64,000 bases of DNA from Isoetes taiwanensis (taxonomy: Eukaryota; Streptophyta; Lycopodiopsida; Isoetales; Isoetaceae): positions 13,431,255 through 13,495,254 of the forward strand of contig JAJEKV010000011.1 of assembly GCA_021234155.1 (NCBI GenBank), read 5' to 3'. The position numbers and the translations under genes are program-made. How positions within the stretch are numbered: position 1 is the stretch's first letter; each line of letters opens with the position of its first letter. This document shows positions 27,019 to 60,029 of the stretch, in pieces. The notes beneath the pieces were generated by a model. That model made no database searches and was not told where the DNA came from. It worked only from the letters and a program-made list of their open reading frames with translations.

Positions 27019-27089
27019 ATGCCTTGCCTTATGAATTATGAATTGGGCATGGAAATAGCATTCCATTGATATGTTTGAGTCCAGTTTTT

Positions 27090-32480: not shown

Positions 32481-32488
32481 CGTATCTA

Positions 32489-32519: not shown

Positions 32520-32583
32520 TTTAACTATATTTCTAACTGATGAACCAATCATGTGGACTGCAGCTCAAGATAGCTTTTTGGAA

Positions 32584-33235: not shown

Positions 33236-33530
33236 GATTGGATGGATTGGCTCGGATTTGAGACCAAAAATGGATTTGCGTAGTTTTTTCTGTCTTTATT
33301 TTATGTTGAATAGCATGGCAGTGAGCTTTTATTTTGTGTTTCTTTAGCTTATTATTACACTTGATTCAACTATTTATCTACTGAGAGATAGATAGCATTT
33401 TGGAAGTAAACAGACGAATTTTGTACTTTGTAGGCCAGGAAATTCAATATACACACATGATAAGCAACCTCTGATTTTTCAGTTGATTTTACAACTCTGT
33501 TTGGGATTGAGAAATCACTGAAAAACATAT

Positions 33531-33548
33531 CTTTTTTTTTTTTTTTTG
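33531..33548 (-). other. LINE poly(A) tail
   Basis: Run of about 18 T on the plus strand, equal to poly(A) on the LINE sense strand, at the 3' end of the ORF2 remnants. Confidence 0.65.
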
Positions 33549-33872
33549 AGAATCAGTGATTCTTGAAAATGGACTTGAAGAATCACCCGTCTCAAGCCGA
33601 AGATGGTGGGCCCCTGTTCGAATGGACGCGATGATCCTGCACGTCTTCATGGGCAACTGAGAACGCAGGTAGAGCTATGGGCCTCGAACCAGGGTGGGGT
33701 TTATGTGCTGTTTGTAGTGTGCCATCTTTACCTGTTCCAGAGCATGGTGGTCCCAAAGCTTCCCCAGGAAACAAGAGTCCAAGTACCTCCTCAGCCTATC
33801 CGGCCGGCGTCTGTGTGCACCTGGACGCACCCATGTGCGTCTACGTTCCAGTGCGCCAGCCACTGGGCTCTC

Positions 33873-36641
33873 TTATCCTTCCAACAAGCCCTGAGTCGTT
33901 GCGGGCTCATCGGCACAGCGTAAGCCAAGTGCGGGAGCCGAGTGTCGCCCATGCTGGCCACCTTCTGAAAATAAACAATGTGTCCAGCCGAGGGTCGCAT
34001 CTTTGCGGGGGCATGAATCCCGTCTCCTCGCAACAAGATCTCGATATGGAACCGAGGGCTTGACCCCCAAGTGCCCCGTCAAAAATGCCTTCGACGGACC
34101 TGCTCTAAGTCGTTCCAAGTCGCCAAAGACACCACAGCGTGCCCCACACCTCGCCCCATACGGAAGAACCGGCTCTACCAATTGTTCTGAACAAATGTGA
34201 CCGGTGGCCCCGGTTATACTGACTACGCCTGTGACTATTGTTTTGCATTGCGTGCATATCGCTTTCCAACTGCGGGTCACCCGGCGAATGGATACATCCC
34301 AATACATTGAGGACGGAAATTCCACCCCCGTGTACTTGTAGGCGGGTGTGACCTCTAGCATCCGCCTCGATAAGTGAGCCGGAGGTGCCGGATGACGATG
34401 AGGAGGATATGAGAACCACCTTAGTCTTGGCCGGTTGACACGCATGTCCGTCGCTGGCTGAATGTGTCCGGGCATCTAGGTGTGCCTGCATGCCCTCTGG
34501 TGTATGGGCCAAGAGGTCCACATCATCCGCATAGATTAGCTGCCGGATGACCTGGTTCAAGAGTCAGATACCGCCCCCATTGGCGACTAGCCGACTTCCA
34601 ACCGGGTCAATGTAAAGTCCAAAGAGTGTGGGTGAGAGGGACAACCTTGCCTAACTCCAATGCTACCGGCAAATGACCGTCCCTTCCGGTTGCATGCGGC
34701 TGTCGCGACTCTCGTATACACTCAGACACTGCGCTTTTTCGCAGATCCATAGGGAGCCCCAGATGGTGCAATCTCGCCCACAACTTTTCCTGGGGCACTT
34801 CGTCGAAAGCTTTTGCAAAATCCATAAAACAGTAGTATAGGTCCTCCCGACGGTTCCTCTGTCCTCGACCCGGGGCCCTGAGTGTGAAGATGTGATCAAT
34901 GGTCGAATGTCGTCGGTCGGCTTCCGGGACTAAGTGCCATGACTTCCGCCGCCTCGCCCATCCGGTTACCTCGCATTGAGAATGCCCGCGCCGCAGCCTT
35001 TGGCAAACACTGAGCTGACCATGATGGTTCGGTAATTGGCTGGACAGTGTGGGTCCCCTGCCTTGTAGATCGGAACAACCCTGCTTGTGGTCCATGACCG
35101 GGGAAAACCCTCTAGCAAATACGTTGAACAATGCAAAGCAAAGACGGGCACCATGGGCTGCCCCGCCCCACTTGAGCAACTCCGCTTGCGGGCCGCCTAA
35201 GTCTGGCCGCCTTCCCATTAGCCAGGTGCCGCAGCCCTCTTCGACATCTTCTTACGTGATCACCGGTGTGGGCCATGTTCTTGAGGGGCACATCCGTCCG
35301 TGTTCCCGGGGATCATAAAGTCGCGCGGTGTATCGCTCCCATTGCACCGCCATGATGTTCCTCGTGAGGGTCGTGATGGTCTCCAGAAGAGTACCCCTCG
35401 CGCCGAGAAAGTTCTCGGTGGCCCAAATTGGGCCGAACATTTCTCCTTGGTGCCTTGTCGTACCTTGCCTTTGTTTCCTTTGAGGAAGGCACGGTAATGG
35501 CTGGTGGTCTCGAAAGTCGCTGTCCCGATCCACGATGAGATGGAGGCGCGCGTTTGCCTTCCTTACACTCAAACATCAAACCATCCATTACGCCGGGAAG
35601 GTTGCGGCTCGATCTCGGCGTGGGGAGGTCTCCCAAAGCACCTGCATGCGCCTCGCTTCGGAGGAGCTCAACCAGCTGGTCGGTTTGCTGCTCCAGCGGG
35701 TGGGCCCGCAGAACTGTCGGGAGGGCTTCTGCGAGCATGTCAGCGTAACCCTCCGCCTGCTCATAATTCAAGGGCAACCGAGGTCGGCAAGGTACTGCTA
35801 CTGAGGGGGCCGTAGCGGCTGGCCAGGCCAGCTTCACATAGAGTGGGAGGTGATCTGAGTCGGCCTCCTCATCCCGACTGTCCGTGCTGATGTGAAAATG
35901 GCTGACAAGGTGTACATCCTGCGCAGCCCTATGACATAATCCACGATACTAGTTCTATCGCCGTGAATGTCCTGTCTGCAAGTGTACCCATGGGAAGAGG
36001 GCCACTGTGGTAGGCCATTGCATATGATCACGTCAAAGATACCGCACATCAGGGCAATAGTCTGCCGAAGCGGGTGACCTGACTGTCATCTGAGTGCCGT
36101 GTGCAAGCTGCCTCTGCGGGACGCAACTGCAGCACGTCATCCGCGAGGGGGTCCAGCCGCATGGCCTGTTCCACCCATGTCCGCGCATTGAAGTCTCCAA
36201 GGAGCATGACTCTGCCCATCCGCTTGTGTTGCTGTATGTCATCATATAGATCGACATACGGGTCCATCCTGTCCACCTCCGGGTGGCTGTGATAGAAGGG
36301 ACTCTCTGCATGGGGAAAGTAGCAAGCAGCTAGGAAGAGAGGATCTCCACCAGGGTGGTGCACTCGGATCCACAAGTAGTGGTTATGTCTGTCGGTCTTC
36401 TGGAGGGAAACCAAATGTGCCAAGGCTACCCGGTAGTAGCAGACAACCCCACACGTCTCCATGTACAACCATTGAACACTGAAAAATGTTGGTACCCTGG
36501 CAGATCGGGCAGCCTGTGGCCTGGGTGTTCCCATGTCTCCATGAGGAAGACGAGGTCCATGTCCACAGCTACTAAATTGAGGCTATTGCCCTTCTGCCAC
36601 GGGAAACCCTGACAGTTCCAGACCACCACCCGGAGGCACAA
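33873..36641 (-). pseudogene. LINE ORF2 (endonuclease + reverse transcriptase)
   Basis: Several overlapping frames together give an L1-type ORF2. The endonuclease start is at 36641-36430 (VVWNCQGFPW, DLVFLMETW). The EN core is at 36534-36049 (LLGDFNART). The EN end is at 36049-35834 (TSIVDYVIG). The linker is at 35837-35313. RT is at 35218-34607 (YCFMDFAKAFDEVPQ, LWARLHHLGLP). The catalytic box is at 34560 (LIYADDVDLLAH). The C-terminal region (YKYTGVEF) runs down to 33873. Each transition is a frameshift, so no functional product is possible. Confidence 0.85.
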
Positions 36642-37576
36642 TTCCTATTGAGCGGTCGGAGATGCTTGTGTAGTGTGTGTCACGGATGGACCAAAGCGGC
36701 GGGGAGCGCATCGAAGTTAGCGGGGCGGACTTCGGACAAGCGTAAGCGGAGGCGGCGAGGGGCAACATTTGGCCGAGCGGGGAGCGGGCACCGAAGTTGT
36801 AGGGATAGATTGTGGAGGATCGAGGCGGAGGCGGCCGGGGGTAGCATTTGGTTGAGCAGTGCACCGCAAAGATTTGATCGACTAAGGGCGTCCCTAACCC
36901 CCGCGAACTCCCTCGTGCCTCCCTCTGTTGCCTTTGAGTAAGATCCCCACTCACATACGAGAGATGTGCCCTTCGGTAACTTGCCCCGCCGCAAGTATGG
37001 CCTCTCGAACTTCGTGCATCCGCAAACCGTGAACACCACGACTGGCCGTGGCACGGGCGCCGGACCCCACACCGGGCTGGTCAGCGTAACTGAGCAGTCC
37101 CGACCGGAAAACGTAATGCGCCCAAGGATGCGTGTGTGTATCTTCCGGTGAGATTCTCTCCCAGCCTCTTCCCGGCAGGCACCGAACTCCTGGTTGTGGC
37201 TCCATCGCTGCGCTCCACGGAGCTCAACGTCCGGTGAGGGCATTGGCCCACTGGCTCGGTGGCGGCACGCGTGATGATGGTGCGGCGAGGCGGGGCTGCC
37301 GGCGCTTGGGTTGACCCGGTGACCCCAATTGGCGTCTTGCGGGGTTGTTGGGCTTGCGGTACTGGTGTGCCATGTCTTTGCGGCCTTCGCTCGAAGTCCG
37401 GAGCTCAGCTCTTGCAAGGCTTGGTCTGTCTTGCCATCTCCCCGCGTCGCGATCTTTGCCATTGTTCATCGCCTCTGCCTAGAGGCCCTTGCCTTTGGGC
37501 AGCGGCGGTCGAACTCCTGCATTTCCCGGTCATGTGCCAAATCCTTCTCCGGAAGAGCGCTTCGGTCTTTGCCTAG

Positions 37577-38113
37577 TTAACTTCCAAGGCGCAACCTCTG
37601 TCTTCTTTGCGGTAGCCTCCTCAACTTCCAACTGGAGTGTGGCCTGTGCGCGCCGTGCCATGGCATTGGCCTCATCAACCTCGATGCGGAGCTGAGACGT
37701 GATTGCAAGTGTCTCGCGCTCTGCCTAGTCCATGTCTTGTCTCTCAGCGTCCAGGGTATCCATGCGAGCCTGCATGTCTGGGAGTACCTACCGGTCTTCT
37801 TTGTCTCTCGAGTGCACCAGCGGATCTTTCGTCCGGCCCGGTGTGCTTGGGTCTCCAACTCAGTGATCTGTTGTCTCGCTATCACCAACTGTCTGCGCAA
37901 CACGTGGGATGTTGCAGACTCCATCTCCGTCTCCAGGCCCGCAATGCGGGCACTATTGGCCTCAACCCCAGCTTGGATGGCGGCCCAAGGTTCTGCCAAC
38001 GAAGGGGGCCCTGTGGGGCATGAGCAGCCAACTTCCAGCTGCCGAGCCGGCCTGGCTGTGTGAGCCTTGGCCTGGGCCTCCTTCTTCATGGAGGATGTCT
38101 CTCCCTTGCCCAC
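37577..38113 (-). pseudogene. Probable LINE ORF1 remnant
   Basis: Frame upstream of ORF2 on the same strand, with a heptad-like segment (AAIQAGVEANSARIAGLETE, RRQLVIARQQITELETQ) typical of a coiled-coil nucleic-acid-binding ORF1, followed by Arg-rich sequence. No zinc knuckle was seen. The assignment rests on position and the coiled coil. Confidence 0.45.
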
Positions 38114-38481
38114 TGCATCTGCACGGGGCCGCTTCCTTGGTGGCCCTTCTTGGTTTTCCCAGGCAGGCTCAGCCTGCGGGAGGTCAGCAGGCTGTGCTGG
38201 GGTTTGCTCGAGGTGGGGTGCTGTGGTCTGTGGAAGCTCACCTGCTAAGGGTGGGTCCGAACACTGGGCTGCTTATGTGACCATGACTGGGGGTATGGCA
38301 CGTCACGCAAGGTTTAGGCTATGGCAGGGGCTTATCAGTCCGGCGGGGGCTAGGCAAAAGCTATGGCGGTCAGTGGCCGTGCTAGGCAAGTCCAAGAGGC
38401 AGTTAGTTGGGCTATGGCAATGCCAGGCAAATGTTGGAGCCTAGCTCAACATTGTTCTGTGCGCTGACTTCCAAAGGCAGT

Positions 38482-38865
38482 GGGGTCTCTGGCATACAAA
38501 ACTGTGCTCAGAATCCAATTTGGGGACCAAAAATGTATGTCAGAGCACCTTTTAGGGGTTTGGGGGTTTTGGGGCTAGAGAGAGACTGTAAACCCTAGAG
38601 AGAGAACAATGGGGTCTCGATCGTTCAAAATTGCGCCGGAATCCAATTTGGAGACCAAAAACGTATGTCAGAGCACCTTTTAGGGGTTTGGGGGTTTTGG
38701 GGCTAGAGAGAGACTGTAAACCCTAGAGAGATAACAATGGGGCCTCTGGCTATCAAAATTGCGCTCAGAATCCAATTTGGAGACCAAAAACGTAGGCCAG
38801 AGCACCTTTTAGGGGTTTGGGGGTTTAGGGGCTAGAGAGAGACTGTAAACCCTAGAGAGAGAAAG
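38482..38865 (-). repeat. Three tandem ~128-bp monomers at the LINE 5' end
   Basis: Copies at 38482-38610, 38611-38738 and 38739-38865. Shared core sequences are GAATCCAATTTGG, GAGCACCTTTTAGGGGTTTG and GAGAGACTGTAAACCCTAGA. They sit directly upstream of ORF1 in LINE orientation, like 5'-UTR promoter monomers known from some animal L1s. Confidence 0.85.
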
Positions 38866-39082
38866 CCAGAAAGGGGCAAATCAAGGGGGCTCTATGCAAG
38901 GGGTTGTAGCTCTATGCAAGGGGTTATAGGCAAGGCAGAGCAAATCCAAATACAAGCCGATTGCAGAAACAAGCGGATCAAAGCAAATCACTTACCAAGC
39001 CGGTACCTGGATAAGGGAAGCTAGAAGGGCAGGCCGGCCTGGCAGAAATGCCCAGGCAGCCTCCTCTTCTGGGAAGTCTGCT
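38866..39082. other. Spacer between LINE and retroposed sequence
   Basis: Contains a tandem CTCTATGCAAGGGGTT duplication near 38891. No gene. Confidence 0.4.
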
Positions 39083-40606
39083 GTGGATGGAGGCAACATT
39101 GCTCTTGAGAACGAGGGTATAGGGCTCATAGATGTGAGTGTCACACTAGGTGTGGCAGGCGCGGATGCACCCCGAGAATTTTATGACATGCTTGTTAGTT
39201 TCTGTGAGCAAAGTTGTGTTGCAGGTGCTGTTGCAGTGGAAAGGGGCAGTGACTTAGATCCCCTTGCATTACCAATATATCTTTAGGCTTGCCTTTAAGT
39301 CTCGCCATGAAGAGGAGGTTTGGGTGGGGGCTTAAAAAACTTGTTGGGATTGTTCTTATGTGCAAAGCACTAAAGAATACTAGACTCCATTGCTTTGAGA
39401 GCCTAATTTGATATTGCACGAAGGACATTGGTAAACCACACTTTAGGATCCATACTAAGAATGTTTCTGAGAGGAATGTTGTTGTTTTGGATAAGAAGAA
39501 CATATTGGGAAGAGCCCTTCATTTTGTCAATTATTGTGGAGGAAGACAACTCACCGCCAGCCTTGTTTACAAAATAACCAGGATGCTCAAAATTGGTAAA
39601 TCCATCTTGTCCACCAGTTAGATTCTTTCTTCAAACACTGCATTCAAATCCGAGCATAGAGTGAAGGCTACCTAGCATTCGACCTTAAATACCAGAGTTG
39701 CATTGCCTAGTGACATCCGATGTGTTATGTATGGCATCCCAGCTAGGATGGAACCCATTCAAAGGGCTTGGCAAATGATGCAAGCGCTATTGGGATGAGG
39801 ATGGGATGCCTGGGAATATGGATGAGATTTTAGTTTTGAGGAGCAAGATGCTGAGTATAGGCCTGAGGTCATTGCTGACATTCCTGGAACTTCTTACATT
39901 CCTTTAGATACCGCAGATTATACAATGGCTTGACTTTTGGTTTCCAGGCCTCTTTGTAAATATGCTTGATTTTGTTTTGATCCTATGTATTTAGTTACAG
40001 TTACTTGTTGATGCCTAGTCTAGAGATGGAGTACGCTCGGGGGGCTGCGGTTGGCGGGCAACCTGGGGCTGATCATAGTAGCAGCCCTGTTAGGGTTGTA
40101 GGAGTGACGCCATCAACAGGTAATGGAGTTATTGATATTAGTGATGATGAGCCATCTTCTTCCCCTCCTCATAGGCCCATAGCACCTGGTCCAAGCATCC
40201 ATGATGTGATACACAATGCTATGCTATCTCCTGTTGTGTTTTCTCTAAATGGGAAATGAGTGCAGGTGGCCTTGGAAGTCGTCTCTTCTATTATAAATAT
40301 AAATACACTTGCATAGTCCATGGCAGCCTCGGTTCAATTGTTCAAGATGAAATTGGGATACTTATTTGCAGCCTTGGAGGACGTTGTCCCCTCAAGGTTA
40401 GCACTGCGGAGAGGCAGCCGCAGCATGTGCATGCACATATGAACTTGGCCAAGGCAATTCTCACTAGGGAATTGTGTCGGATTGATGCCATGGCGAGGAG
40501 GCACAATTCAACCATGAATGACAACTAGGTAATGCTTTGCTCTTTGCTTATTTGCTTTATTATCTTCCGTGTTTCTTGATTCCATGTCTTTTGCATAATC
40601 AAAAGC

Positions 40607-40639
<33 letters not shown>
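39083..40639 (+). mobile_element. Poly(A)-tailed retroposed sequence, origin unknown
   Basis: Plus-strand sequence ending in 32 consecutive A residues (40608-40639). It has several plausible but broken coding pieces: 39083-39286 (GLIDVSVTLGVAG), about 39430-39600 (read as HTKNVSERNVVVLD in one frame) and 40005-40259 (GVIDISDDEPSSSPP, a SUMO-interaction-like motif). The layout suggests a processed pseudogene or a 5'-truncated LINE. The parent protein is not recognised. Confidence 0.45.
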
Positions 40640-40640
<1 letters not shown>

Positions 40641-41140
40641 GCTTCTGGAAATCGTGTTCAATTGCAGAAAAACTGAATTTTGTGTATGATTGTTTTGCAT
40701 TGCTTGCATGATCTTGACAGTTATGAAAAACTTAAAAAACATTGGGGAAATTTATGACTGATTGCATTGGCATACTGCATAGGATTAGCCCCTGCCCTTT
40801 AAGGGCGGGCGGGCTACTTGGAGTTGCGCAATGCACAGGGGATTGAACTCCTCCAGCTCGTTTCTTAGTTCTACTTGTAGGTATGGTGTCAAGGCATTGC
40901 AAGCTTGGTGTCCCAAGCTGGAACAAGACAGTGGCAATAAGGCTGATAGAGAAAGATACAATAGTGGCAGATATTAGCCCATGGCGCAGTGTGAAGAAAA
41001 GAGAAATTATGACTATAAGTTATGACATGAGCTTTTCCAGGGGACTATATATGGCTTTCTATCAATGATGCCTTCTGCCGAAATAACCATGGACTGACCT
41101 TCTATGAAGTCACCTTCTATGAAGTCACCTTCTGCACTCA
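40640..41140. other. No gene recognised
   Basis: Short frames only. Three CCTTCTATGAAGTC copies lie at about 41099-41156. Confidence 0.4.
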
Positions 41141-41159
41141 CCTTCTATGAAGTCTTGTG

Positions 41160-42460
41160 GCTCCTGTTAGTCGTCTTCGTCATCGTCCACTTCCTTTGAT
41201 GACTCCCAATCAATGAGTTCTGCCAGTGCTGCTTGCATCATGAAGGGATAATCATGTGTACGATGACCCAGCTAGAAGCATCTAAAACATAGCCTCTTCT
41301 TTATGCATTCCTCCCTCTTTTCCTTCGGAATACTATCCAAAAAGAATTTCATTGATTTCTCCCCGGGGCCTTCCTACTGCCTCTGTTCTCCGTAAGATCC
41401 TTTCCTATCCATCTTCCCCTGATACTGGTGCCCTACTGGTGTGGAGGATGCTTGCCTTGGCTGATAAGGCCTTGTTGCTTTCCTTTGTGAGCTTGCTGTT
41501 TCTGCCCTGGGGTTGTCGGTGCTTCCTCCAAGCTTAGTGCCTTGTCTTCGGCCTCCCCAACTGTTTTTGGATTGATGGCCCATGCCAATCTCTTAATGTT
41601 AATGTTCAATCCCTCAATATAGCCATCCACTGCCTGCCTTTCAGTGATCCTTAGGACATTTAGCCTTAGTCTCATAAATTCCTCTGTATATTTGGCCACT
41701 GATAGATTCCCTTAGTCCAACCTATAGAACTGCTGAATCTGCCTGCTGGTGTGCGACCTTGGGACGTAGTGCTTGTGGAAAGCCTTACTGAATTTTTTGA
41801 ATCTGCACTTGTTCCTTCTTAGCTTGTTTGACTTGACATATCCTTTCCACCAAATTCGGGCTGGTCCAATCAGGTTTGTTGTTGCTACCTTTCCTATGTC
41901 CTTATCTTTCATCCCGTATGAATTCCCAAATTCCTCCATCTCGTGTAACTAAGCTTCCACTTCCATTCAGATCTATCTTTCCTCGAGAACTGACCCAACT
42001 TCCGGGTTTTCCATGCATTACTCGTTGCACTATCCACCTTCTTCTGATAGTCCCCTATTCTACAGTTCCTGTCCCTGCCTTGTGAGGTGTCTGACTCACT
42101 TTCAGAACTATTTCAAGATCCACTTCCTGTAGTGTCTGACCGACTGGAGCTAGAAGGAGATGGGCTCCTCCTACTTCTTCTTTTTCTCTTTTTGTTCTTC
42201 TCAGGCACATGGACTTCTTCCTGCTCTGGTTGAAGAGCTTTGTCTGGTCCTCTCGGTGGTGGAGGCGGCATTGGTCCATACTCCTGAGCATGCATCAAAG
42301 GCGTAGCCCACTGTATCGGTTGCTGCATCTGGTTCATTGATCGCTTCAGCCGTCATCTCTTGTTCTTCGTCATGATCTCGACCGAACAAGTTCCTAGGTT
42401 GCCACTGATGTTGTATGCCCTGACCTTGAGACCCTGAGTCGGTATTCCTGGCTGCAAGTA
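41160..42460 (-). pseudogene. LTR-retrotransposon gag (Ty3/gypsy-like)
   Basis: The N-terminal part (42390-42113) is Pro/Ser/Arg-rich (PMPPPPPRGPDK, KKRKRRSRRSPSPS). The capsid-like retrotransposon-gag domain is at 41939-41433 (ARIWWKGYV, FSKAFHKHYVP, QIQQFYRL, then VAKYTEEFMRLR and RLAWAINPKTVGEAE). One TAA after FYRLD interrupts an otherwise continuous frame. Downstream on the minus strand (about 41305-41260) a degenerate CCHC knuckle reads CFRCF, stop, LGHRTHDYP, the last Cys being replaced. Protease, RT and integrase do not follow, so the element is truncated at this end. Confidence 0.8.
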
Positions 42461-42469
42461 TTAGTTACC

Positions 42470-43480
42470 ATGGTTGTTATTCAAAGTTACACATCGTGAC
42501 ATCATTTATATGTTAATTCTTGTTAGCCATAAAAGATATCAAGTTGAAACTCAACTTATAAATTAACAATGAATTATAATAGTTGATACACCAACATACA
42601 ACTGGAAGCTTGAAATTTTATATAGAAGATAGATAATAGTACATGAAGTTTAAAAGTATCTTGGTACATATTAATACATAGGAAGGGATAAGGGTTTATC
42701 GTCGAGAGCCTTTCATAGACTTGAAGAAGTTCTTCACGTCCTTGAGTCGAAGACCCTTGCCAACATTGCGTAGGATATTTTGGGATGACACCCCTTCTAA
42801 TGCTCGAGCCATTTGAGGTGGTGGGAGCGGTGGTGCCATAGCCTCTACTACTATCATCGGCGCGTCCCTTAGATGACCCGTGGCGAAGTCGAAGTTGTAG
42901 AGCATGGAATAATTTAAGGGCTAAACTTAGTTATTTGGCAATTTTTGAGCACATTTTCAAAAAAATTGACTAAAGTGAATGAAAAAAAATTGGGAAAAAA
43001 ATAATAATAGCTTTACTTTTTTCGGGACTGCACCAACCCTAGAGCTCCTTAGCCAAATGCTAGAAAGTAAGAGAGTCAAATTTTGTATTGTTTAGCTAAA
43101 TCATAGAAACTTTTAGAATGAATTTCGGGCTAGTTTAGCTAACATCATTCTAGTTTATAAGAAATATATGAGTAATAGTTTAGATTCTAGCATTATAAAT
43201 TAATTTGAGTCCTAAACTTGCTAGTTAGCATTATTTAAGAATGTGTTCACAAAGAAAATGACTAAAATAAGTGGAAACAATTGAAAAAAAAGTATAGTAA
43301 TTTGGCTTAATACTTTTCGTTGGCCACGCCATAGAAATTTTTGGGATGATGTTTGGGTTAGTTTAGCTAAACGCTAGAAAGTATGAGAGAAAAATGTGTA
43401 CAATTTAGCTAAACCACAGAAAGTTTTGGGATTAATATCGAGCAATTTTAGCTAAAGTCATTCTGGCTAATAAGAAATAT
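42470..43480. other. Retrotransposon interior, non-coding with tandem repeat
   Basis: A minus-strand frame (42905-42696: LKDVKNFFKSMKG) is unrecognised. Two diverged ~300-bp direct copies lie at about 43022-43178 and 43325-43475 (landmarks TTTAGCTAAA, CATTCT.G.TTATAAGAAATAT). Confidence 0.45.
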
Positions 43481-43762
43481 GCAATTGTAATTTATTCCAT
43501 GCTGTAGAGTACCACAGATCTTTTGAAGAGGATGACGTGATCCGTACTCCCTCACCTTGGCATGCTGGCCAAAACCTGTAAGTGCAATCAAGAGTGCCAC
43601 GACCTCCTCTCCTCGTGGGCAGGCTGAAGTCCTTGTGGAATACTATCATCTGGCCTTGGCTTAGAACTGGGAGACAGTATCGAAGAGCCTTTCCCCTTTG
43701 ACACTATCGGGGATAGGGCCATGATGCCTATAGATAGTTCATTGGCCCTTCTGATATCTTCA

Positions 43763-44416
43763 TCATTTTGCTATTTGCCTCTCCATCCGTAATGCTAGCC
43801 TGCTTTTCTCGTCTTGGTCATCATCCCCTTCCTGTTCATAGTCTTCTTCAATTTGAAGTGCCCCTGCGAATGTGCTATGGTAGACGTACTCCGAGGTCTC
43901 GATCTCGTAGATTTGGCCCTGATCTACCCTTGTGTTGAGGTGTGCGAGGTCCAAGGTCTGAATTGAAGGTTCACCTACCCTGTTGATGGCCCTGAAGTGC
44001 ATGAACAGAGATAACGCCATGTGTGTTGATTCGTACCGATTCCTGTGAGCCTTACAACTCATGTAATCAGGCATGTTCTTCGTCCTATCCCACAACTGAC
44101 TCTTGACTCTGGTTCCCCCACCTAAGACTTGACTTAATAACTCCAAGGACACCCACCTGCCTCCCTTAGAGGAAGGCTTACTTCCCATGACAAAATTTGC
44201 TGATCATATTGACACACAATATCAGTATAATAGGGTTCTAGTCAGGGTTGCATGGAGATCAAAGAGATGGTCAAAGATGTGGAAGGCCTCCTTTGCTGGG
44301 AACTCACTGATGTGGTTGGCACTGTTAACAAAGTTTGTGGACGCCATTGAGCAGAGATTGGAGTAGAAAACGGTTGGGAAAGATTGACAAGGAGCTGGAA
44401 AATTGCCTAAGATCAT
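43763..44416 (-). CDS. Unknown ORFs inside the H3-bearing element
   Basis: Two minus-strand frames, 44416-44222 (MILGNFPAPC...) and 44188-43763 (MGSKPSSKGG..., 141 codons). The latter has an acidic C-terminal patch (EEDYEQEGDDDQDEK) and a segment HMALSLFMHFRAI. No family is recognised. By position they lie between the H3-like ORF and gag, and could be a third product of the same element or its degraded linker. Confidence 0.35.
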
Positions 44417-44643
44417 GAGAGCAAATTTGGTGAAGAAAAAAAAATGTCAAATGAGGTCCCTTTTTAACTGCTTAGGTTTATGTGCCCAAGAGTTCTTGTT
44501 CGGGTAGATCTATGTTCTAAAGCTATAGATCTCCAAGCTAGGTAACATGAAGTGCAAATCTAAGCAAAACAAGTCAAGAAACACTATAGGGCAGTTTTCT
44601 AGATAAATTTTGGACAAGTTTGGTCAAACATGCTCGACTCAGA

Positions 44644-45081
44644 TTACTCCACGCGAAACGTGTCTGCGTTTGCACGCAAGGCCCATTGGCGTGGAGTGAC
44701 TAAAACTTAACATTTTTGGGAAATATAAGATACTAAAATGCAAGTTTAGCTCAATTCTAGACTGTCTAACAACTTATCTTATGTCAATCTAACATGTAAA
44801 AGTGCAAAAATGGGTGACTCGGGTTACTCCACACGAAACGCGTCTGTGTTCGCGATGCAAGGCCCCTCGGTGTGGAGTGACCTGAGTGGATCGATCTAGA
44901 TTTTTTCTGAACATTTTTGACAAATTTAAGATGATACATTATAAATTTTAACTAATTCTAAGTATTCTAACAATTTTTCTTACAGAAATTGGACAATTTA
45001 AGCCAACAAAGAAGGGACTTGAATTACTCCGCGCGAAATGCGTCTGCGTTCCCGACGCAAGAGCCTTCGGCACGAGTGACC
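44644..45081 (-). repeat. Three tandem stem-loop repeats
   Basis: Copies at 44644-44700, 44824-44882 and 45024-45081, spaced 180-200 bp. On the plus strand each has an outer stem TACTCCAC.C with G.GTGGAGTGA and an inner stem TG.GT with A.GCA. Copies 1 and 2 differ by paired changes in the outer stem (ACGC/GCGT against ACAC/GTGT), which supports a conserved fold. Copy 3 has a weaker outer stem but a perfect inner one. They sit just 3' of the H3-like ORF in the element's sense. Confidence 0.75.
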
Positions 45082-45241
45082 CGAGTGGATCAATTTTGAC
45101 CTAAAAGTCAATTTTATGGAAAATTTTGAACTAGCAATCTTAAAAAGAAGATTTTAATTACATTAATAAGGATTTTACACCAAATTGGTTTATACAGAAG
45201 TATTTTTACACAAAATTATCTTGATACAAAATTACAAGCTC

Positions 45242-46326
45242 CTAAGGCTTGTCTTTCTGGATCCTCCTAACCAAATGGAGGTCCTTCGGCATCACTGTTA
45301 CCCTCTTCGCATGAATGGAACATAAATTGCCTTCCTTGAAGAGTTGTACCAGCTCTGCCTATGCTGCCTCTTGCAGGGATCAGACCGTTAGGGGTGTAAA
45401 AATCGGTCGAGAACTTTTGCATAATTTCCTGGAGGAGCCGTTCAAATGGCGCCTTCTGGATCAGGAGATTAGTGCATTGCTGAAAGTGCCTAATCTCCCG
45501 AAACACCCTGGCGTGTTTGGAGTTGGGTCCGTTGGTGGACCTTCTTCGGAGGCTCTAGCCGGGGTGGTGGCGGCTTCGGTTGATTTTTGGGTCTGCCACT
45601 CTTAACATATTTTTGTACGTTTTGCTTGCAATACCAGTCATTGTACCTCTTCCATCTCTAGAGGTACTCCTGGTATACTTTTTTTCTTCTCTCAAATTCG
45701 CGGTCCTGCTTTAGCATGAACTCACGCTCTCCCGCCTTCTGCTTCTTCGCCACCTTGGATGGCTTGGGGCACTTTGGGTAAGGTGGCCAGGCGTCGGGGT
45801 TTGAGGTCTCCCTGACGTCTCCTTCTGGCTCCTCCTCCTCCTTGTTGCCACCTTCTTCCTCCACCTCTTTGTCCTCGTCCTCCTTCCTTCTCCTGTCCTC
45901 CTTCTCTCGCTCCCTCTTCTTCCTTGCCGCTCAATCTTCCGGCCACTTTGCCACCTTCTCCTTCCCCTTCTTTTTGATGAGGCCAACCTGCGTTTGATGG
46001 CGCTCCTCCTCCTACTGCTGCCTGCCTTATTGCACCTCCTTCTCATGCTGCTCCTCTTGGCTAGGCGCGGACGTGCAAAGCTCGACTGTTTCGCCCGTCC
46101 GCTGTGTAGCCCCCGACGAGCTGCTGGCCGCCTGTTCATGGGAAGTGTGGAAGGTCTTGTCCGTGCAGCTCGACGAATCGTTCCGCTCTTCCTCCTCCCT
46201 CCCAGGCCTGAGGTGCTCCGGGGTCTTCTTTCCGCTACCTGCTGCCGTACCTGCTGCCGCCTCTGCCATAAAAGATCTCTGCCTTGGGCTCGTGTATTTC
46301 CTTGCTGTGCATTTGGTTCGAGCCAT
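45242..46326 (-). pseudogene. Histone H3-like ORF with long charged insert
   Basis: Starts at ATG 46326 with MARTKCTARKYTSP, nearly the H3 tail (K4 and K9 contexts kept, Q5 to C, S10 to Y). About 250 residues of low-complexity sequence follow (Ser/Glu-rich, then Lys/Arg/Glu-rich, with SGRPKNQPKPPPP near the end). It ends in an H3 histone fold. The alpha-N to alpha-1/2 part at about 45515-45380 reads VFREIRHFQQCTNLLIQKAP and FERLLQEIMQKFSTDF. In a second frame at 45376-45242 alpha-2/3 reads LQEAA, stop, [20 protein letters not shown], then [14 protein letters not shown]. Lesions are at least three in-frame stops in the charged region, a frameshift before the fold, one before LQEAA, and TAG 45359-45361 where H3 has Glu. 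It has the normal H3 loop-1 length, so it is not obviously CENH3. It is the first ORF after the retrotransposon PBS. Confidence 0.85.
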
Positions 46327-46651
46327 ATCTTACAATTAAGAAAATGGATTAACTTTAGCTGGAGATCAAGAAAGAGAGGTTTGGGGTGTGTTAGGGAGAG
46401 TGAGATCCCAGAATAAAAATTTTATGCTCATGTATAATTTCCACTCCAATCTTACTAGAATGTTAATTTGACTCATCATTTTTCCCTGCATCTATAATTT
46501 AGCCTAACTTTATGACCCTACTACTTAAGAGAAAAATTTTCTCCCATTTTTCAAGGTTCAATGCTGGAATTTCTATCCCATGCTCTATTGCCGGTTAGAC
46601 TACTAAGTCAGGGATATGGTCAGTGCTAGTTCTTGGTCAACCAAGAACATT
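46327..46651 (-). other. Leader between PBS and H3-like ORF
   Basis: About 325 bp of non-coding sequence between the primer-binding site and the ATG at 46326, consistent with a retrotransposon 5' leader. Confidence 0.5.
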
Positions 46652-46663
46652 GCTCTGATACCA
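46652..46663 (-). other. Primer-binding site, initiator tRNA-Met
   Basis: GCTCTGATACCA on the plus strand is TGGTATCAGAGC on the minus strand, one base from an LTR end (..GCACCACA). This sets the element's direction as right to left. Confidence 0.88.
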
Positions 46664-46664
46664 T

Positions 46665-47495
46665 TGTGGTGCTCCCTATTAAATATACGACGCTGAGTCG
46701 TACACCTCGTAGGAAATCCCCCATCCAGCTCTCTGGCCGCACGGGCCCTCCATCTATCCCGCACCCAAGATATCCCCAGTGCGGGAAGGGGACACAGAGG
46801 TGCCTTGATGCCCTTCCACTATGGGCTCCTATACAGCGTAAGCATAACATAATGTCAGCACTAACAACAACAATACATCTAGCTACCTCGAAGTGTAACA
46901 CATCCGTACATCCATATATACAACAAAGACATCAACATGCCATAAAACATGAGAGCTCCTACTCAGGCTCAAACTCGTAAGGAAGTGGACTGACGGCTGG
47001 GCCACAAGATAGCAGACCGAGATATAACAATGGCGAAGCTGGCTATAGACAATGGCTAAGGTTGACCACTGCATCGCCCCTCCTGTGCATACTTTGCAGA
47101 CTGGCTAGATCGGGCTCTGGCGTGACTATAACCTGCCAGATACGTAGTCTCATGGTATCACCCATCAGGACTAGTCCGGGGTGCTTCTCCCCGGTCCGAT
47201 GAGGTAGGAAGGGTTCCATCTCCCCTTCCCGAGGCCTAATGGTTCCATGGGCGGCTAGAGAATCGTGATGACATACAATTCGTATCCGACTGAACTCCCC
47301 AAAACAAGAGCCAGGCCAACACCTGCAACTCCTGAGGGTCAGGGCGACACCATTGACCCAGGAAGTGTCAGACCCATACCCGGCCCACACGAAATGACTG
47401 ACTATAGACCTAGCCCACTATGGGTCCTCAGTACCCACGCTCAACAGGGACCCCCATCCACTTTGCCACTAGCCTCGTTGTGTAGTGCTGTGACA
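46665..47495 (-). repeat. 5' LTR of the H3-bearing element (approximate)
   Basis: On the minus strand it would start TGTCACAGCACTACAC (47495) and end GAGCACCACA (46665), about 830 bp. The inner border is fixed by the PBS. The outer border is inferred from TGT..ACA ends. The other LTR was not found in the window. Confidence 0.6.
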
Positions 47496-47498
47496 TTC

Positions 47499-47533
47499 CA
47501 CGTATTTATATGCCTTTTGGGTATAAATACGTG
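47499..47533. repeat. 12-bp perfect inverted repeat at LTR border
   Basis: CACGTATTTATA and TATAAATACGTG separated by 11 nt. Confidence 0.8.
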
Positions 47534-47539
47534 ACACGC

Positions 47540-48185
47540 CACTATAAATAATCAATGGTGCATTAATTATTCATAAGCTAAGGTTAGCTATGTAAATCAT
47601 TAATTATTAATGTGGAAACCTAACCTCAAACCTTAATTCGAATTTAGGGCTTAACCTAATATTAAAAGGGCTAAAATATTAAATTAATTAATCTAGAATT
47701 GCCACCTGGCCCAAATCGATTGGGCAAGGTAGACCTGCTATCTTGGGATACCCAAATTGAGGTTTTACACCCCCATTTGCCCCAATTCGAATTGGGGGAG
47801 ATTGGTGGGGGAGGAGCTATTGTTCAACCTTGTTCATGGAGAACCAGAGAGATAGTGGATCTAGCGATGATCCCAGTTAGTACGTAGATAGCTTTGATTC
47901 CTAGATAGTCATAGGATTAACCCTTATATGCTCAGAAGATAGCTAGGATTTACCATTGTATGAATAGATGTATGGTTAATCTCTATTTTATGTTCTATTC
48001 GAAGCTATGGATGGATAAATGTATAATTATAGTTCTATTTCTGTTCCTCCTGTGTTGTATGGGTAAAAGGGGGTTAGAGACCTAAAGGCCATCTAGAAGT
48101 AGAGATGTTCCTAGTTAGAACCCTTAAAACCCAGTAAATGCGGCTTGTGCACAAGAGCCCACCTGGCTGTGGATGCTATATCGTG
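47540..48185. other. AT-rich spacer, no gene
   Basis: Includes a GGGCAAGGTAGACCTG..GGGGGAG stretch. No recognised feature. Confidence 0.35.
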
Positions 48186-48189
48186 ATCC

Positions 48190-48540
48190 GGCACCAGATA
48201 ACGGGTACAATGGTGAAACGGGGGTGGGGTCTTGCCTAGCGTGGCTACAAGTCTCCTTCAGTGTGCTAGGTTTATAGTCGGTCCTCGCGTTTGGGACCGG
48301 GTATGGGTTCGACACCTTCTAGGTCGCAGCAAATGTGCCTATATGGATGTCCTGGGCTCGATGGGCGCGCCTAGCGGTCCATAGATTTTGATGGGTTCAA
48401 GTCGGGTACGGCTGCGTGTGCACCTAGTGGCATGTACCTCTAGCACACCCAGGGATCCATTGTGTTCGAGGAGGGGACACTTCTTTGACCTGTCTCATCA
48501 GACCGGGGAGATATAACTCAGAGTAGTCGGGTAGAAGCAT
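48190..48540 (+). repeat. Related LTR fragment in opposite orientation
   Basis: Resembles the reverse complement of about 47044-47480. Landmarks are GGGTATGGGT(T/C)(C/T)GACAC, TC(A/T)TAGTC-like stretches and CTCATC(A/G)GACCGGGGAGA. It is an inverted partial copy of the same LTR family. Confidence 0.6.
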
Positions 48541-48871: not shown

Positions 48872-49848
48872 ATGACGAAACAGCTTGGAACAAAGACATC
48901 TCCAAGGAAATCTCCTCGCAACAAACCTCAAAGCCCATGCCAAGGTCTCCCACTAGAACTGTCGCCCAAAACTCAAGAGTGGGTCTTCTTCGGATCGGGA
49001 GGTCTTGCCTTGAAGTTTGACAAGGTAAGCATCGAAATTTAGGAGCAACAATTTTGATAGCATGTTTCGGGGCTAGTGCAAATAGTGCAGATGTTTGGGG
49101 TTCAAGCCCCTACGTTAGGGGTTATCAAGAGTCTGGGATTAAGCCTGGTTGGATGGCAGATTTTTTTTCTGTGTATGAGCACGTTTTTTGTAGGAGGGAC
49201 ATTGCAAATCATCACATTCCATTGTATTTTGCCCGAGCATATGCACTTCATTACAAAGGAGTACGCATTGATTGGGATGAGGTGAAAGCAAGTGCAAGTC
49301 TTCATTCAAAAGGCTCTCAAAAAGAATCTGACCTGACAGAATTAGCTACAGTAAAGTCTTCCAATGTTAAAGCTATTAAATGTATGCCTCAGGTAGAATT
49401 GGGGCAGCGGTTGGAAATGATGAAAAGGTGGAGGGAAACAAGAGCATTAGATTCTGCCTCCATGCTTGATGAAATACAGACTTTAAAAGAGAAAAGGAAA
49501 ACAATGGAAATTGAACTGTTGAAGCATGAGAGTGATAAGAGCTTCTTGACAAGACTTGTGCAGAGTAAAGATGCAAAAATATGTGAGCAGTTCAGCATTA
49601 TGGCAGGTTTAAAAGCAAGCGGGAAGCCAATTGATGTGCAAATGGCTTTGGCATCCCATTTAGAGGAGGAGAAATCAAGTTATATTGCTGACTTAGATGC
49701 TCTAATGATTCCCATTGATTGTTTAAAGGCTGATTTGCAAGAATTAGAAGCTGCCATTGAAAAAATCAGCAAGGATTTGGAAGTTAATTCCAACTGTGAG
49801 AATAGAATAAAGGAGATGACTAAGCATTTGGAAGGTCAGACCCGATAG
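48872..49848 (+). CDS. Coiled-coil protein, 5' exons of a Ulp1-type gene
   Basis: Exon 1 (48872-49024, 51 codons, MTKQLGTKTSPRKS...) ends at a good donor, AAG|GTAAGC. The main exon (about 49055-49848, stop TAG) encodes VYEHVFCRRDIANHH and HYKGVRIDWDE, then about 150 residues of heptad-rich coiled coil (EIQTLKEKRKTMEIELLK, LDALMIPIDCLKADLQELEA). The splice between them could not be joined in frame with a canonical AG, so either a lesion or an unrecognised exon lies there. No known domain was found in the N-terminal part. It lies upstream of Ulp1-like sequence on the same strand, and I infer a common gene. Confidence 0.55.
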
Positions 49849-55961: not shown

Positions 55962-58900
55962 TTACAGAGATTCTACAATCTCTGGCAAATTTCCCAGCAA
56001 CATTTCATGCCAATAGTTAGTCAGTTCATATGCATAAGATGTACCTTTAATCTTATGTTTGACTGGCTCCAATGGAAATCTCACCCCAATTACTGACTCG
56101 GGATGGACAAGAACTTTCTTTCCTTGAATAAGCCTGTACTTTTGATGGCAACCAGGAATCAATTCAAAGTAGTTACCAGCTATAACTTCATTACCACAAT
56201 AAAATTCATTTCCATAGTCATCCTTGGTGTCTTCTTCGAGGGCATGTTTCACTTCTGTGCACTGGATGAGATAATAAGGGACCCTTTCATAATTGTCTGG
56301 GGATGTGAATGATGCAAAATAATCTCCAACCCGCCTTTGTCTCATCCACATTGTCTACGCCATTTGCCCACAAGTCCTGCGCCTCCTCGTGCCCATCTTC
56401 TTCAACATTGTCCCCTGTTTGTAGGCTCTAGTTTTCTCAACTCCCACCGCCACAATGATCAGCATTCTCACAAGCAGGCCAATCAAAATTGATGCATGCC
56501 TTACAAAAACATGAAAGAGATCTACACATTAACTTTGTTGGATCATTTGGATCTATGGATGATACGCAATGAAGAGATTGCACCCCTTTCACTGGGAGCA
56601 CATCAAATCTTTGGGAACGGTCAATGTCAGACACCTTCCAAAATACCCTTTCCACATCAGAAACTTTCTCTTCAAGAACCTCACATGCAGTTTCTGCATT
56701 TTTTATCACTTTCCCATCCTTTTTTTTTTGTTGCGCCTCGAGCCATAGTTTGGCTATGGCTCCTTCTCCGCCATGTGTGCCCTTCCCATGTCCCGAGCCA
56801 AAGAAATTCCAGTGCATTCTGATCTTATGCTCTTGATGATACCTAGTTACATGATAGAAAGCTCTTCTCGACTTGAATTGGGCTGCACACCCGTCAGACC
56901 AAACTAAGTGGTATTTCATATGACCAGCACCATTTTCTTTCAGCCAATTGAGGTGCATCTTGAATGCTTTTTGTACAAAGTGAGTATCATGTGTTTTGTC
57001 ATCTGAAATAAAGAAGTGCACACATTTCCTCATTTTACCCTGTACCTTGAACATCGTGATGTGGACCAATATGTTGATTTGTTCATTGTACCAATGTTGT
57101 GCTTGAATCTCGTTGAATGGCTTCAAAGTATAATTCTCCGAGAAATCAACAACTGATAATACGGTATCATCACGAAGACTCTTCATGGATTCCTTGAATT
57201 GTTTGCCAATGTGCCACAAAGTTATGATATACAAACTTCGACATATGATCAAACATGTTATCCAACATATTACTGGAGCTGCCTTTCTTGTCAATTAGCT
57301 TTAGTCTTCGTGAAGTTCCTTTCTTCGAGGGCTCATTAACGTAACCATAGACTTGCCAATCAAGCGTTTGATCAATCTGCTCCTTGTATTCTCTTGGACA
57401 CAACTCAATTAATTGTTTCCCACAATTTCCACAATCTGATTTGATACATTGTAGCCTGCTGTCACATACCATAGCCCTCCAAAATGTGCTAACATTATCA
57501 AATGTCTTGTCCTTCGCTTGACATATTCCAAAGATGAGCTTGGATGCGCACACACCACAATTGCACGAAACAATTTTCATGGAGTCTTGACCTCATCAAA
57601 TTAAATGCCCGCTTGTACAGGATCGATTGCTCATGTTTCACGCAACAACATGTGTTTCTTTCCTTTAGCTTTCTAATGCAAGAAGGTTTTAAGTATTCAA
57701 ATTGCCTAAGCCCAATCTGAACCTCCGGATCTTGATCCACAAAATTGAATAATTCACCAGTAAAATTACGGTTGAAATAAAATTAGTCACCTCATTACAT
57801 TACATTACATACAAATCTTTTACATATTCAAGACCCTAAACTCCCACACATACATGTACATTCTGACATGAATTTTATTTCATTTACTATGAAGTCACAT
57901 AATTTTTTGACAAACAATACATCTCCACACTAATTTCTTCTTAGTTACTGCCTACATCTACAATACATCCAGAATATACATGTAAACAAATATACATCCA
58001 GAATATACATGTAAACAAATATACATCCAGAACATACATGTAAACAAATATACATGTACGTGTTGCCATGAAATAATTTGACATTTCCATGTAGAACAAC
58101 TAGGGCAGACTGCATCTACATTACATTCAAAAAGTAAAGAAATCTGTTACAAACTTTACATCAGTGTTACAAAATAAAAGACATCTTTATTCTGCCAAAA
58201 AGTAAAGAAATCTGCAAACTTTACATTCTTTATTTTGAAAAACAAGATGCAATTACAGCTAAATTACAGTCGTACCTGTGTAATGTCAATATATTGAATT
58301 GGTTGTGTCCTCTTCTTCATGACATCTCTAATTTTTGGTGAAACCTTTGAGTTATCTAACCAAAACTGAGCAACCATATCCTTCATAGCCTGATCTATCG
58401 TATTTGTTCTTGGATTTCGACCTGCTAATGCCCACAGATTTGTTCCACCTAGTGACATTCTTTTCCTTCTCTCCACTGCTAGTTTCATATTTCTAGGATG
58501 TATTTTCAAAGAAACTTAGTCGCTAGTGAAGTCTTCGTAAATTCTCCTTCCTCTCCAACCACCATAGATAGTACAGAATGCTTTGCGACAAGTCCGCTCA
58601 TTGCTATTTGCATTTTTGACGCCTTGGAGGCCATCCTTTAAATTCTTTACCGGATCTGTTTTTCACGATAGCCTCTTGAGGCCTTCCAATGACCCGCTCA
58701 AATAGGAATTGCAATCTTTTGTCCTGCAATAATCTTCTTGCAAATATACTTTCTTTGTTTTGGAGTCAAATTAGATACCTCATTCATTATGAGATTCTAC
58801 GAAGCATTCACCTTTCTTCTAATTGGCTTTGTCACGTATCCACCCCTACAAACCCTCTGTTTTGATTTTCTTTGCCTGCTTGTAACAGTGCTTTCCGAAA

Positions 58901-59224: not shown

Positions 59225-59560
59225 GTTTGATCGATTGAGGAAAGTTCAAAATGTGCGCCAAAGTTTTTTTTTTTCGCAGGCAAGATATTTAGATTTTATT
59301 GATAGAGAAGCTAGTACAAGATTTCGGGAGGATTTGGTATAATTATGGAGAATATTGTACGTCAACCGCCTTTATTAATGATAGGCAACTCCATGTAAAA
59401 TTCAAAATGTACATTACAAACACTTTAACCCAGTTCAAATTTTTACATCAATATACAAAAAAATTCAATCACCCTTTCATGCTTCTACCCAGTCTCATAG
59501 GGTGATTCCATGAGATTGCGTCTCCAGAAGGCTACAATCACGCGATAGCCTGTTTCAGCC
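59225..59560. other. Flank of transposase gene
   Basis: Contains a T-run (TTTTTTTTTTTTCGC) near 59263-59277. No terminal inverted repeat matching the 48.5-kb side was found. Confidence 0.35.
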
Positions 59561-60016
59561 TATCTGCAAAGTGTGCACAGGAGGGCCGGATGGAGTGGAC
59601 TACCCTAGCCATTATTTTATGCCAGCCAACGCCATGTTATACTTCTGTCTGCTGTTATTCGGAGGCCTTGACTGTCAGTTGACCCCCATGAGTCTGAGCC
59701 CGGGGTAGAGCCCTTATTTATGGTGTATTTCCTTTCTTATGTTAGTATTCTGTTGTTAGTTGTATTGATGATGATGGGCCACCCTTTTTATTAGTATTGT
59801 TACCAAGTGCTAACGTGTATGTACGCTTCCGCTATATAGGATTCCCATAGAAGGCGTGGGACGAATGACACCTCCGTGTCCTTCACTTGGACACTTGGCC
59901 ATCACAAGTGGTCCGAGTCAGACGAAGGGCCTTTCTGTGGTGATGGAGTCACCATGGGAGGGGAATTTTCTGTATTTATATGATGGGAGCGTCGTACGGA
60001 TTGGGGGAGCGTCACA
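59561..60016 (+). repeat. 3' part of an LTR (start undefined)
   Basis: LTR-like sequence ending GGGGGAGCGTCACA just before a PBS. The end ATGGGAGCGTCGTACG..GAGCGTCACA resembles the 46.67-kb LTR end (CAGCGTCGTATAT..GAGCACCACA), so the two belong to related families. The left boundary is not identified. Confidence 0.5.
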
Positions 60017-60017
60017 G

Positions 60018-60029
60018 TGGTATCAGAGC
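60018..60029 (+). other. Primer-binding site, initiator tRNA-Met
   Basis: TGGTATCAGAGC one base after CA. No gag or pol follows within 4 kb, so the element is non-coding or truncated. Confidence 0.8.

Follow-up and report, generated by a model that had tools for sequence, protein, structure and literature searches.

Centromeric variants of histone H3 (CenH3, CENP-A and Cse4) combine a long, variable N-terminal part, which in plants has a short H3-like start, with a fast-evolving H3 fold. H3-like genes can also be multiplied by mobile elements, as with the H3L gene borne by hAT transposons of Pyrenophora and other Dothideomycetes, whose copies are reported as very similar to each other (26 in the Pyrenophora reference) or inactivated by repeat-induced point mutation (PMC3538342, PMC6710886). 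Plant chromoviruses carry long terminal repeats (LTRs), an initiator-Met primer site and the order gag, protease, reverse transcriptase (RT), RNase H and integrase, and PMC3350952 states that the factor interacting with their group II chromodomains was not found. Here we describe a 64,000-nucleotide stretch of the genome of the quillwort Isoetes taiwanensis (the window) that almost certainly holds a decayed, 3′-truncated copy of a chromodomain-bearing Ty3/gypsy LTR retrotransposon, the first open reading frame (ORF1) of which is a variant of histone H3.

The quillwort element shares with plant chromoviruses the LTRs, the primer site and the order of the gag-pol domains, and the chromodomain of a full-length relative (L024) resembles those of group II in that, by eye, it lacks Y24 and Y48 and keeps W45. 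It differs in having two extra genes before gag, and no ORF like the first of these, the H3 variant, appears in the available text of PMC3350952. As with the fungal H3L transposons, a mobile element multiplies an H3-like gene; however, those are fungal DNA transposons, whereas the element described here is a lycophyte LTR retrotransposon with the plan LTR-ORF1-ORF2-gag-pol, a long linker within its histone, diverged families, and purifying selection seen between diverged copies. ORF1 also shares with CenH3 the H3-like start, the long variable N-terminal part and the rapid evolution of the H3 fold, but it lacks the longer loop 1, is nearer to canonical H3 and is encoded by a retrotransposon. 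We found no published report of a retrotransposon-borne H3 of this kind, although this does not establish its absence from print; in the main texts of two Isoetes genome papers (one being PMC8566536), the word ‘histone’ occurs 0 times.

A broken H3-like ORF1 in the window

ORF1 of the window opens with MARTKCTARKYTSP, in which 9 of 10 N-terminal residues are identical to H3. About 250 residues with a high content of Glu, Lys, Arg, Ser and Pro separate this start from an H3 fold at the other end. Frame 0 supplies MARTKCTARKYTSPRQRS along with the Glu/Lys/Arg-rich and Pro-rich part and contains four in-frame stops; the second frame yields FREIRHFQQCTNLLIQKAPFERLLQEIMQKFSTDF and the third a 47-residue piece. 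In total, two frame changes and five stops disrupt the gene. The read-through pieces match Pfam Histone with 84–85 bits (E 7e-24 to 9.4e-24) and nucleosomal H3 chains of the PDB (E 8.6e-27), and the middle frame alone, unstitched, clears the Pfam Histone cut-off (28.4 versus 26.4 bits). Furthermore, positions 46326–45140 form a single colinear DNA alignment with the relative L025 that runs through tail, insert and fold (64% identity, E 2e-112), and thus tail and fold do not derive from two unrelated insertions. An intron reading of the insert was rejected, since relatives have an open frame through it. The initial annotation, which had described a broken copy joining an H3 tail, an insert and an H3 fold in one protein and had anticipated intact relatives, agrees with these results: the C-terminal part is histone rather than another family, and intact-frame relatives are present in the same genome.

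A neutral-decay simulation matched the conservativeness of the window copy towards H3 in 1 of 2000 and 8 of 2000 runs. Among the 120 listed of 780 matches in a protein database search, the alignment never exceeded 49% of the query, and the matches above 30% (P0034, P0036 and P0100) are doubled canonical H3s. Viral contigs yielded no relative beyond a single distant match (37%) to the part with the fold.

ORF1 is part of an LTR retrotransposon

The locus had been taken for a stand-alone histone gene, possibly of a fern. Instead, the primer site, the LTR and the full-length relatives identify it as ORF1 of an LTR retrotransposon family, and its source is a lycophyte. The primer site sits 337 bp before the ORF1 start codon (Table 1), and exact initiator-Met primer sites occur three times in the window and in none of 50 shuffles. 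The LTR end and primer site on the ORF1 side share 65% identity over 596 columns with a plus-strand LTR end and primer site at 59.5–60.1 kb. Alignment to L025 covers the window copy colinearly between mid-LTR (47490) and the gag end (41042), apart from an unaligned 590-bp piece; the copy retains half of one LTR, the primer site and, of gag-pol, gag only (Retrotrans_gag 4.5e-15, Ty3_capsid 3e-12). The open piece in ORF2 (141 aa) has no PDB match. Behind gag, no pol domains were found on the minus strand in 24001–33900 and 38301–47600; the interval between, 33901–38300, holds a non-LTR element, and there the pol scan covered part of the frames. Behind the primer site of the second related element, the plus strand up to 64000 gave no Pfam match.

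Table 1 Features of the window, with positions counted from its first nucleotide
Feature	Positions	Strand	Basis
Broken ORF1 with H3 tail, charged and Pro-rich insert, and H3 fold	45241..46326	minus	Translation; Pfam Histone; tblastn; DNA alignment to L025
Start codon and H3 tail residues 1–9 (ARTKCTARK)	46297..46326	minus	Translation; homologous tails in relatives
H3 histone fold, across two frames	45245..45503	minus	Pfam Histone; tblastn placement
3′ half of 5′ LTR	46665..47490	minus	77% identity over 843 columns to positions 811–1639 of the 1639-bp LTR of L025
Primer-binding site TGGTATCAGAGC, initiator-Met type, directly after LTR end	46652..46663	minus	Exact match
Untranslated leader from primer site (included) to ORF1	46417..46664	minus	78% identity to L025 leader
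Stretch before and in ORF2, with open piece 44188–43766	43496..44992	minus	Colinear with L025 internal 1243–2604 and 3064–3261
About 590 bp unaligned to L025, within ORF2	42903..43496	n/a	Gap between colinear blocks; 79% internal direct repeats
ORF2 end and gag, broken; capsid part 41927–41520	41042..42903	minus	65% DNA identity to L025; Pfam
Related LTR fragment, opposite orientation	48042..48528	plus	63–67% identity to LTR/upstream parts of L025, L024, L035, L037
Second related element: LTR end and exact primer site (60018–60029), nearest family 3	59491..60029	plus	71.6% to upstream part of L035
Non-LTR element, GC-rich (57–59% in 34–38 kb)	33873–38272	minus	Weak endonuclease and RT matches
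CNOT10-like tetratricopeptide repeat exon, 647 codons	9619–11562	minus	PDB CNOT10 1.5e-60
Ty1/copia element, own exact primer site at 15407	15376–21762	plus	RVT_2 2.3e-45
Pentatricopeptide repeat fragment inside Ty1/copia span	19949–20491	minus	

Two relatives, L025 and L024, reveal the full order of the element, which spans about 13.1 kb: LTR, primer site, ORF1, ORF2, gag, protease, RT, RNase H, integrase with chromodomain, LTR. Both are complete in length (13,148 bp for L025 and 13,220 bp for L024, taken with neighbouring stretches), with some gag-pol frames closed. Their LTR pairs (1639/1646 bp in L025, 1651/1653 bp in L024) have TG..CA ends and differ by Kimura two-parameter divergences of 0.014 and 0.034, respectively; a purine tract precedes the 3′ LTR in each, and an exact 5-bp target duplication flanks L024, with no exact one at L025. 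Pfam domains follow in L025 in the order Histone, Retrotrans_gag/Ty3_capsid, RVP_2, RVT_1 (2.1e-34), RNase H, integrase and SH3_Tf2-1, and its intact ORF1 matches Pfam Histone at 4.6e-29. The integrase end of L024 matches Pfam Chromo (9.4e-12), and its L025 counterpart is 97.6% identical. Between ORF1 and gag lies ORF2, a frame of 521 codons in L025 (L025:3656-5218) that has no Pfam match above the cut-off. No transposase domain is among the Pfam matches, and an LTR element, rather than terminal inverted repeats, surrounds the H3-like ORF.

Synonymous divergence between L024 and L025 is 0.285 in ORF1, far above the values of 0.063–0.066 in the compared parts of pol. This difference suggests that ORF1 variants have been exchanged between elements, which would make these elements mosaics.

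Three element families carry H3-like ORF1s

Genome searches covered the Isoetes taiwanensis assembly (1,658,258,908 bases in 1110 contigs). The window fold as query returned 8407 first-look candidates, which are unscored hits; all 150 matches that were scored reached E≤2.6e-41 at 68–78% identity, and about 33 of these, by hand count, have open frames of at least 350 aa without a stop. Twenty loci of this family (family 1) with open frames of at least 316 aa were fetched, each as 10 kb apart from one that is shorter at a contig end. A frame of 333–422 aa from a Met is present in 17 of the 20; in six of these the tail is broken or shifted and a different Met downstream of it serves as start. The open frame of L019 comprises 384 codons but no H3-like start, and in L027 and L028 the first Met lies only 61 residues before the end. 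The primer site upstream of ORF1 is exact in 15 of these loci, has one mismatch in two and is lacking in three (L013, L019 and L026); ten copies with an H3-like start place it 550–582 bp from the ATG.

Canonical plant H3 as query returned 9031 first-look candidates, a figure that is not a copy number. The best matches are 15 host H3 genes at 97–99%, followed by 135 matches at 72–87% with frames of up to 567 aa. Five of the latter (L035–L039) were fetched and constitute family 3, with an exact primer site in four. In comparison with H4 this abundance is specific to H3: a control query with H4 produced only 69 first-look candidates, also unscored, and 43 matches, of which 16 are full-length at 99–100%. 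Counts of H3 genes and of PF00125 domains in lycophyte genomes may contain transposon proteins.

Among the 11 distinct family-1 copies that have their tail in frame, ORF1 is 357–385 aa long; it measures 417 aa in family 2 (a second element at L020) and 409–415 aa in family 3. None of these proteins has the canonical H3 layout of about 135 residues without insert. The family-2 protein starts with MARTKQTARK and has a more divergent fold; those of family 3 combine a fold close to the canonical one with an N-terminal part unlike that of family 1, and L035 reaches 538 aa from an upstream Met. We have very little doubt that ORF1 is an H3 variant of about 357–417 residues, in which a long and variable linker or domain separates an H3-like N-terminus from an H3 fold.

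All three families carry this ORF behind a primer site. Family 2 shares the element plan as far as the fetched stretch goes (gag), and behind ORF1 of the family-3 copy L038 follow gag, protease, integrase and chromodomain, without RT. Counterparts of family-1 proteins were found for ORF2 (L020, 34%, E 4e-86; L038, 22%, E 4.5e-12), for gag (L020, 74% over 70 aa; L038, 61% over 181 aa) and for integrase (L038, 75% over 146 aa). Relative to canonical H3, the changes A135P and Y54F are common to L025, L020b and L036, and L037 has A135P without Y54F. The simplest reading is one ancient plan rather than three captures.

The H3 fold is under strong purifying selection

Among the 11 distinct family-1 copies (55 pairs), the ratio of nonsynonymous to synonymous substitution rates (dN/dS) is 0.044 in the fold, 0.134 in the tail, 0.106 in a conserved Pro/aromatic linker and 0.20 in the acidic/Ser linker. 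Close pairs give a clearer picture: the fold has 7 synonymous and 0 nonsynonymous changes between L024 and L025, 15 and 0 between L012 and L017, and 9 and 0, 11 and 0, and 8 and 0 in three family-3 pairs. Less clean pairs also occur, such as L009–L013 with 13.5 synonymous and 7.5 nonsynonymous changes. The N-terminal parts of close pairs yield dN/dS values of 0.08–0.29 where dS is computable. The pools comprise copies with a scripted in-frame M-x-x-T-K start, leaving out nine of the 20 family-1 loci (L011, L016, L018, L019, L021, L023, L026, L027 and L028), as well as L004, a duplicate of L009. In families 1 and 3, therefore, strong purifying selection acts on the ORF1 fold.

The residues under this selection include surfaces used in nucleosomes. 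When scored against lists of contact residues from nucleosome structures, 10 of 10 residues of the H3–H3 bundle are present in all 11 distinct family-1 copies and in all five family-3 copies, and 9–11 of 13 DNA contacts are kept in family 1 and 13 of 13 in family 3. Fold prediction, which the initial annotation had proposed for the C-terminal residues, was run on ORF1 of L025, and the C-terminal part of this AlphaFold model finds nucleosomal H3 as its best Foldseek match (E 1.6e-5, probability 1.00). The N-terminal part of family 3 (L035–L039) has predicted helices and beta strands.

The fold is closer to canonical than to centromeric H3. The loop 1 insertion that marks CENH3 is absent from 19 of 19 rows (18 distinct), and the window fold scores 246 with canonical plant H3 versus 166–201 with plant CENH3 sequences. 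A tree of 23 folds joins the window to family 1 (support 97/94), apart from the CENH3 group (97/93), and gives family 3 a separate branch (97/98) within the half containing canonical H3. Families 1 and 2 fall into the half with the plant CENH3 sequences, by a weakly supported split (75/82).

Among the database proteins, an unnamed family of long H3-like proteins (P0094–P0105 and P0121–P0215, labelled ‘ena’) comprises about 85 clusters of 208–489 aa (86 by motif count, with P0106 and P0231 set aside). Its members (P0101, P0103, P0196 and relatives) likewise join a TK-rich start to an H3 fold through an insert rich in Glu/Lys and in Pro, and of the folds compared that of P0103 scores highest with the window (254). 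However, no insert homology was detected, the family is separate in the tree and its H3 residues are, by eye, of animal type. Four derived fold states are common to the window and four members of its first subfamily (p 0.00035–0.00075). We read these as repeated changes, because lobster CENP-A-like proteins share five and seven derived states with the window fold. Homology to this family was rejected, as insert similarity lies within that of shuffles and the tree places the two apart. The lobster proteins P0230 and P0231 are H3-like, 155–163 aa long, with an EIRHFQ..LLI signature, and from their sequence are probably CENP-A. The statement in the initial annotation that no described protein has the ORF1 layout consequently needs qualification, since the long variable tails of CenH3 and the unnamed family parallel it in part.

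Lysine 4 of the tail is nearly constant and lysine 9 is variable

Compared with the canonical tail ARTKQTARKSTGGKAPRKQ, ORF1 keeps or nearly keeps residues 1–9, and residues 11–35 are replaced. Selecting starts by the M-x-x-T-K motif biases tail conservation in the dN/dS set, and the tail was therefore re-examined without this filter. A tail is present in 21 of 27 family-1 loci, with T3-K4 in 20, K9 in 16, the exact ARTKQTARK in six and S10 in none.

Exact MARTKQTARK is encoded at 1051 places in the genome, counted without single checks, versus 0 for a reversed control, and among the 60 matches listed at least 36 different DNA words encode it. Freeing codon 4 raises this number to 1060, so that only nine places lose K4 with the rest intact. 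Freeing codon 9, in a search that restricted codon 8 to AG/CG and thereby also allowed Ser, gives 1888, and up to 837 places thus lack K9. Four of the latter were fetched (L041–L044), three encoding ARTKQTARV and one ARTKQTARI. The fold remnant of L043 resembles family 2, and the K9-less tails of these four loci may represent further subfamilies. Overall, K4 is nearly constant and K9 varies between subfamilies. This pattern weakens the K9 part of the proposal that the product mimics the H3 tail.

An element-encoded histone with a proposed anti-silencing role

Reader domains are a known means by which retroelements contact host chromatin; the element described here contributes a core histone of its own. 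Because the fold is conserved together with an H3-like N-terminus, we regard ORF1 as a probable working H3 variant, and either nucleosome entry or mimicry of the H3 tail by its product is plausible. Our preferred explanation, to which as a whole we assign a probability of roughly 0.6, combines the nearly certain identity of the retrotransposon and its H3 variant with a less certain mechanism, in which this variant would enter chromatin and act against silencing. Once translated, the protein would use its conserved fold to pair with host H4 and may enter nucleosomes on the DNA of the element itself or at target sites, where it would replace normal H3. It would present a T3-K4 end as a site for activating marks and their readers, and in place of H3 residues 11–35 it would carry an acidic, Ser- or Pro-rich linker or another domain, some subfamilies also lacking K9. 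The element might thereby make chromatin permissive, providing protection against silencing, a docking place for the integration complex, or both. We favour this permissive outcome over a ligand of the H3K9 type because K4 stays and K9 and residues 11–35 do not.

This mechanism is more tentative than the explanation as a whole and, on balance, less likely than not; all four K9-less places fetched are broken, and K9 loss may stem from few founders. The same caution applies to the wider possibility that this retrotransposon lineage makes its own nucleosomes. Under that proposal, a selected H3 variant, deposited by the host on the element with its K4 end kept and its silencing sites shed, might control the chromatin of the element and perhaps its integration sites.

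Several observations weigh against a chromatin role. The fold could be conserved for another use, such as packaging complementary DNA (cDNA) in the particle, and in family 2 only 8 of 10 bundle residues and 8 of 13 DNA contacts are kept, with equal values for the window copy. The L025 model is of low confidence (overall predicted local distance difference test score 52.9), its H3 matches have TM scores of about 0.5 to the target with root-mean-square deviations of 7–18 Å, and a model of family-3 ORF1 gave no fold match at E≤0.001. The pooled dN/dS values involve dS near saturation (proportions of synonymous differences, 0.67–0.69). The places that encode the exact tail include host H3 genes (15 full-length) and no doubt decayed copies, and the genome-wide tail counts mix working and decayed ones. 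The four fetched K9-less frames are all broken, with stops after 14, 66, 210 and 74 residues, and of these places only L044 showed a primer site, and only L041 and L043 a remnant of the fold. Loss of K9 may come from a few amplified founders and is not necessarily adaptive.

The main rival of anti-silencing deposition is self-targeting, in which the N-terminal part of ORF1, once laid down in chromatin, serves as ligand for the chromodomain or integration complex of the same element, so that new copies insert at marked chromatin. A chromodomain and an H3-like ORF1 do occur in one element in family 1 (L024) and family 3 (L038), and the missing interactor of group II chromodomains noted above would fit such a role. 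Nevertheless, we consider this possibility rather doubtful. Judged by eye against the HP1 pattern, Y24 is replaced by I and Y48 by L in the L024 chromodomain, leaving only W45 of the aromatic cage as in group II; K9 is lost in some subfamilies; and the contrasting divergences of L024 and L025 indicate that ORF1 and chromodomain are not strictly co-inherited. It is unlikely that the fold instead acts outside host chromatin, condensing or protecting the DNA or RNA of the element together with gag, or bringing it into the nucleus. This packaging role is in keeping with the presence of ORF1 and gag in one element and with a fold that, in families 1 and 3, keeps the majority of the listed DNA contacts, but it needs neither the H3–H3 bundle nor the H3-like N-terminus, both of which selection has kept. 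Similarly, many copies have an exact or near-exact H3 N-terminus that would suit a decoy, whereby free ORF1 protein sequesters histone chaperones of the host or its readers and writers of the H3 tail, weakening silencing in trans without deposition. The fold, however, is conserved more strongly than the tail and would be needless for a decoy of tail-binding factors, which makes this explanation quite improbable.

Two further alternatives deny ORF1 a function in the element. A host H3 fragment might have been captured once and copied along as a functionless passenger: gene capture by plant LTR elements is reported in numbers (PMC13317346), and fungal hAT transposons have captured H3 (PMC3538342). 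Against this stand the low dN/dS of the fold, the five close pairs with 0 amino-acid changes versus 7–15 synonymous ones, the rarity of equally conservative outcomes in the neutral simulation and the retention of ORF1 by three diverged families. Neutral decay of a captured H3 was rejected on the ratios, the close pairs and the simulation, and a passenger is very improbable. Barely credible is a host CENH3 pseudogene that lies beside an LTR by chance. CenH3-like fold changes (EIRHFQ, TNLLI), the position of lobster CENP-A-like proteins as the top two of three fold-search matches, with seven derived states shared by P0230, and the weakly supported tree half of families 1 and 2 point towards it. 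It was rejected on the fold scores, the absence of the loop 1 insertion and the colinear homologues within full-length elements, and the window groups with family 1 rather than with CENH3.

The preferred explanation, a chromatin-entering H3 variant with an anti-silencing role, raises testable questions: whether the H3 of the element is present in nucleosomes, whether it blocks silencing marks, and whether it is the partner of group II chromodomains.

Other features of the window

Outside the elements listed in Table 1, long open frames at 49021–49848 (plus) and 56437–57294 (minus) have no Pfam match above the cut-off. Positions 500–6000 hold an array of 31-bp tandem repeats organized in 300-bp higher-order copies, some of which are 96–100% identical.

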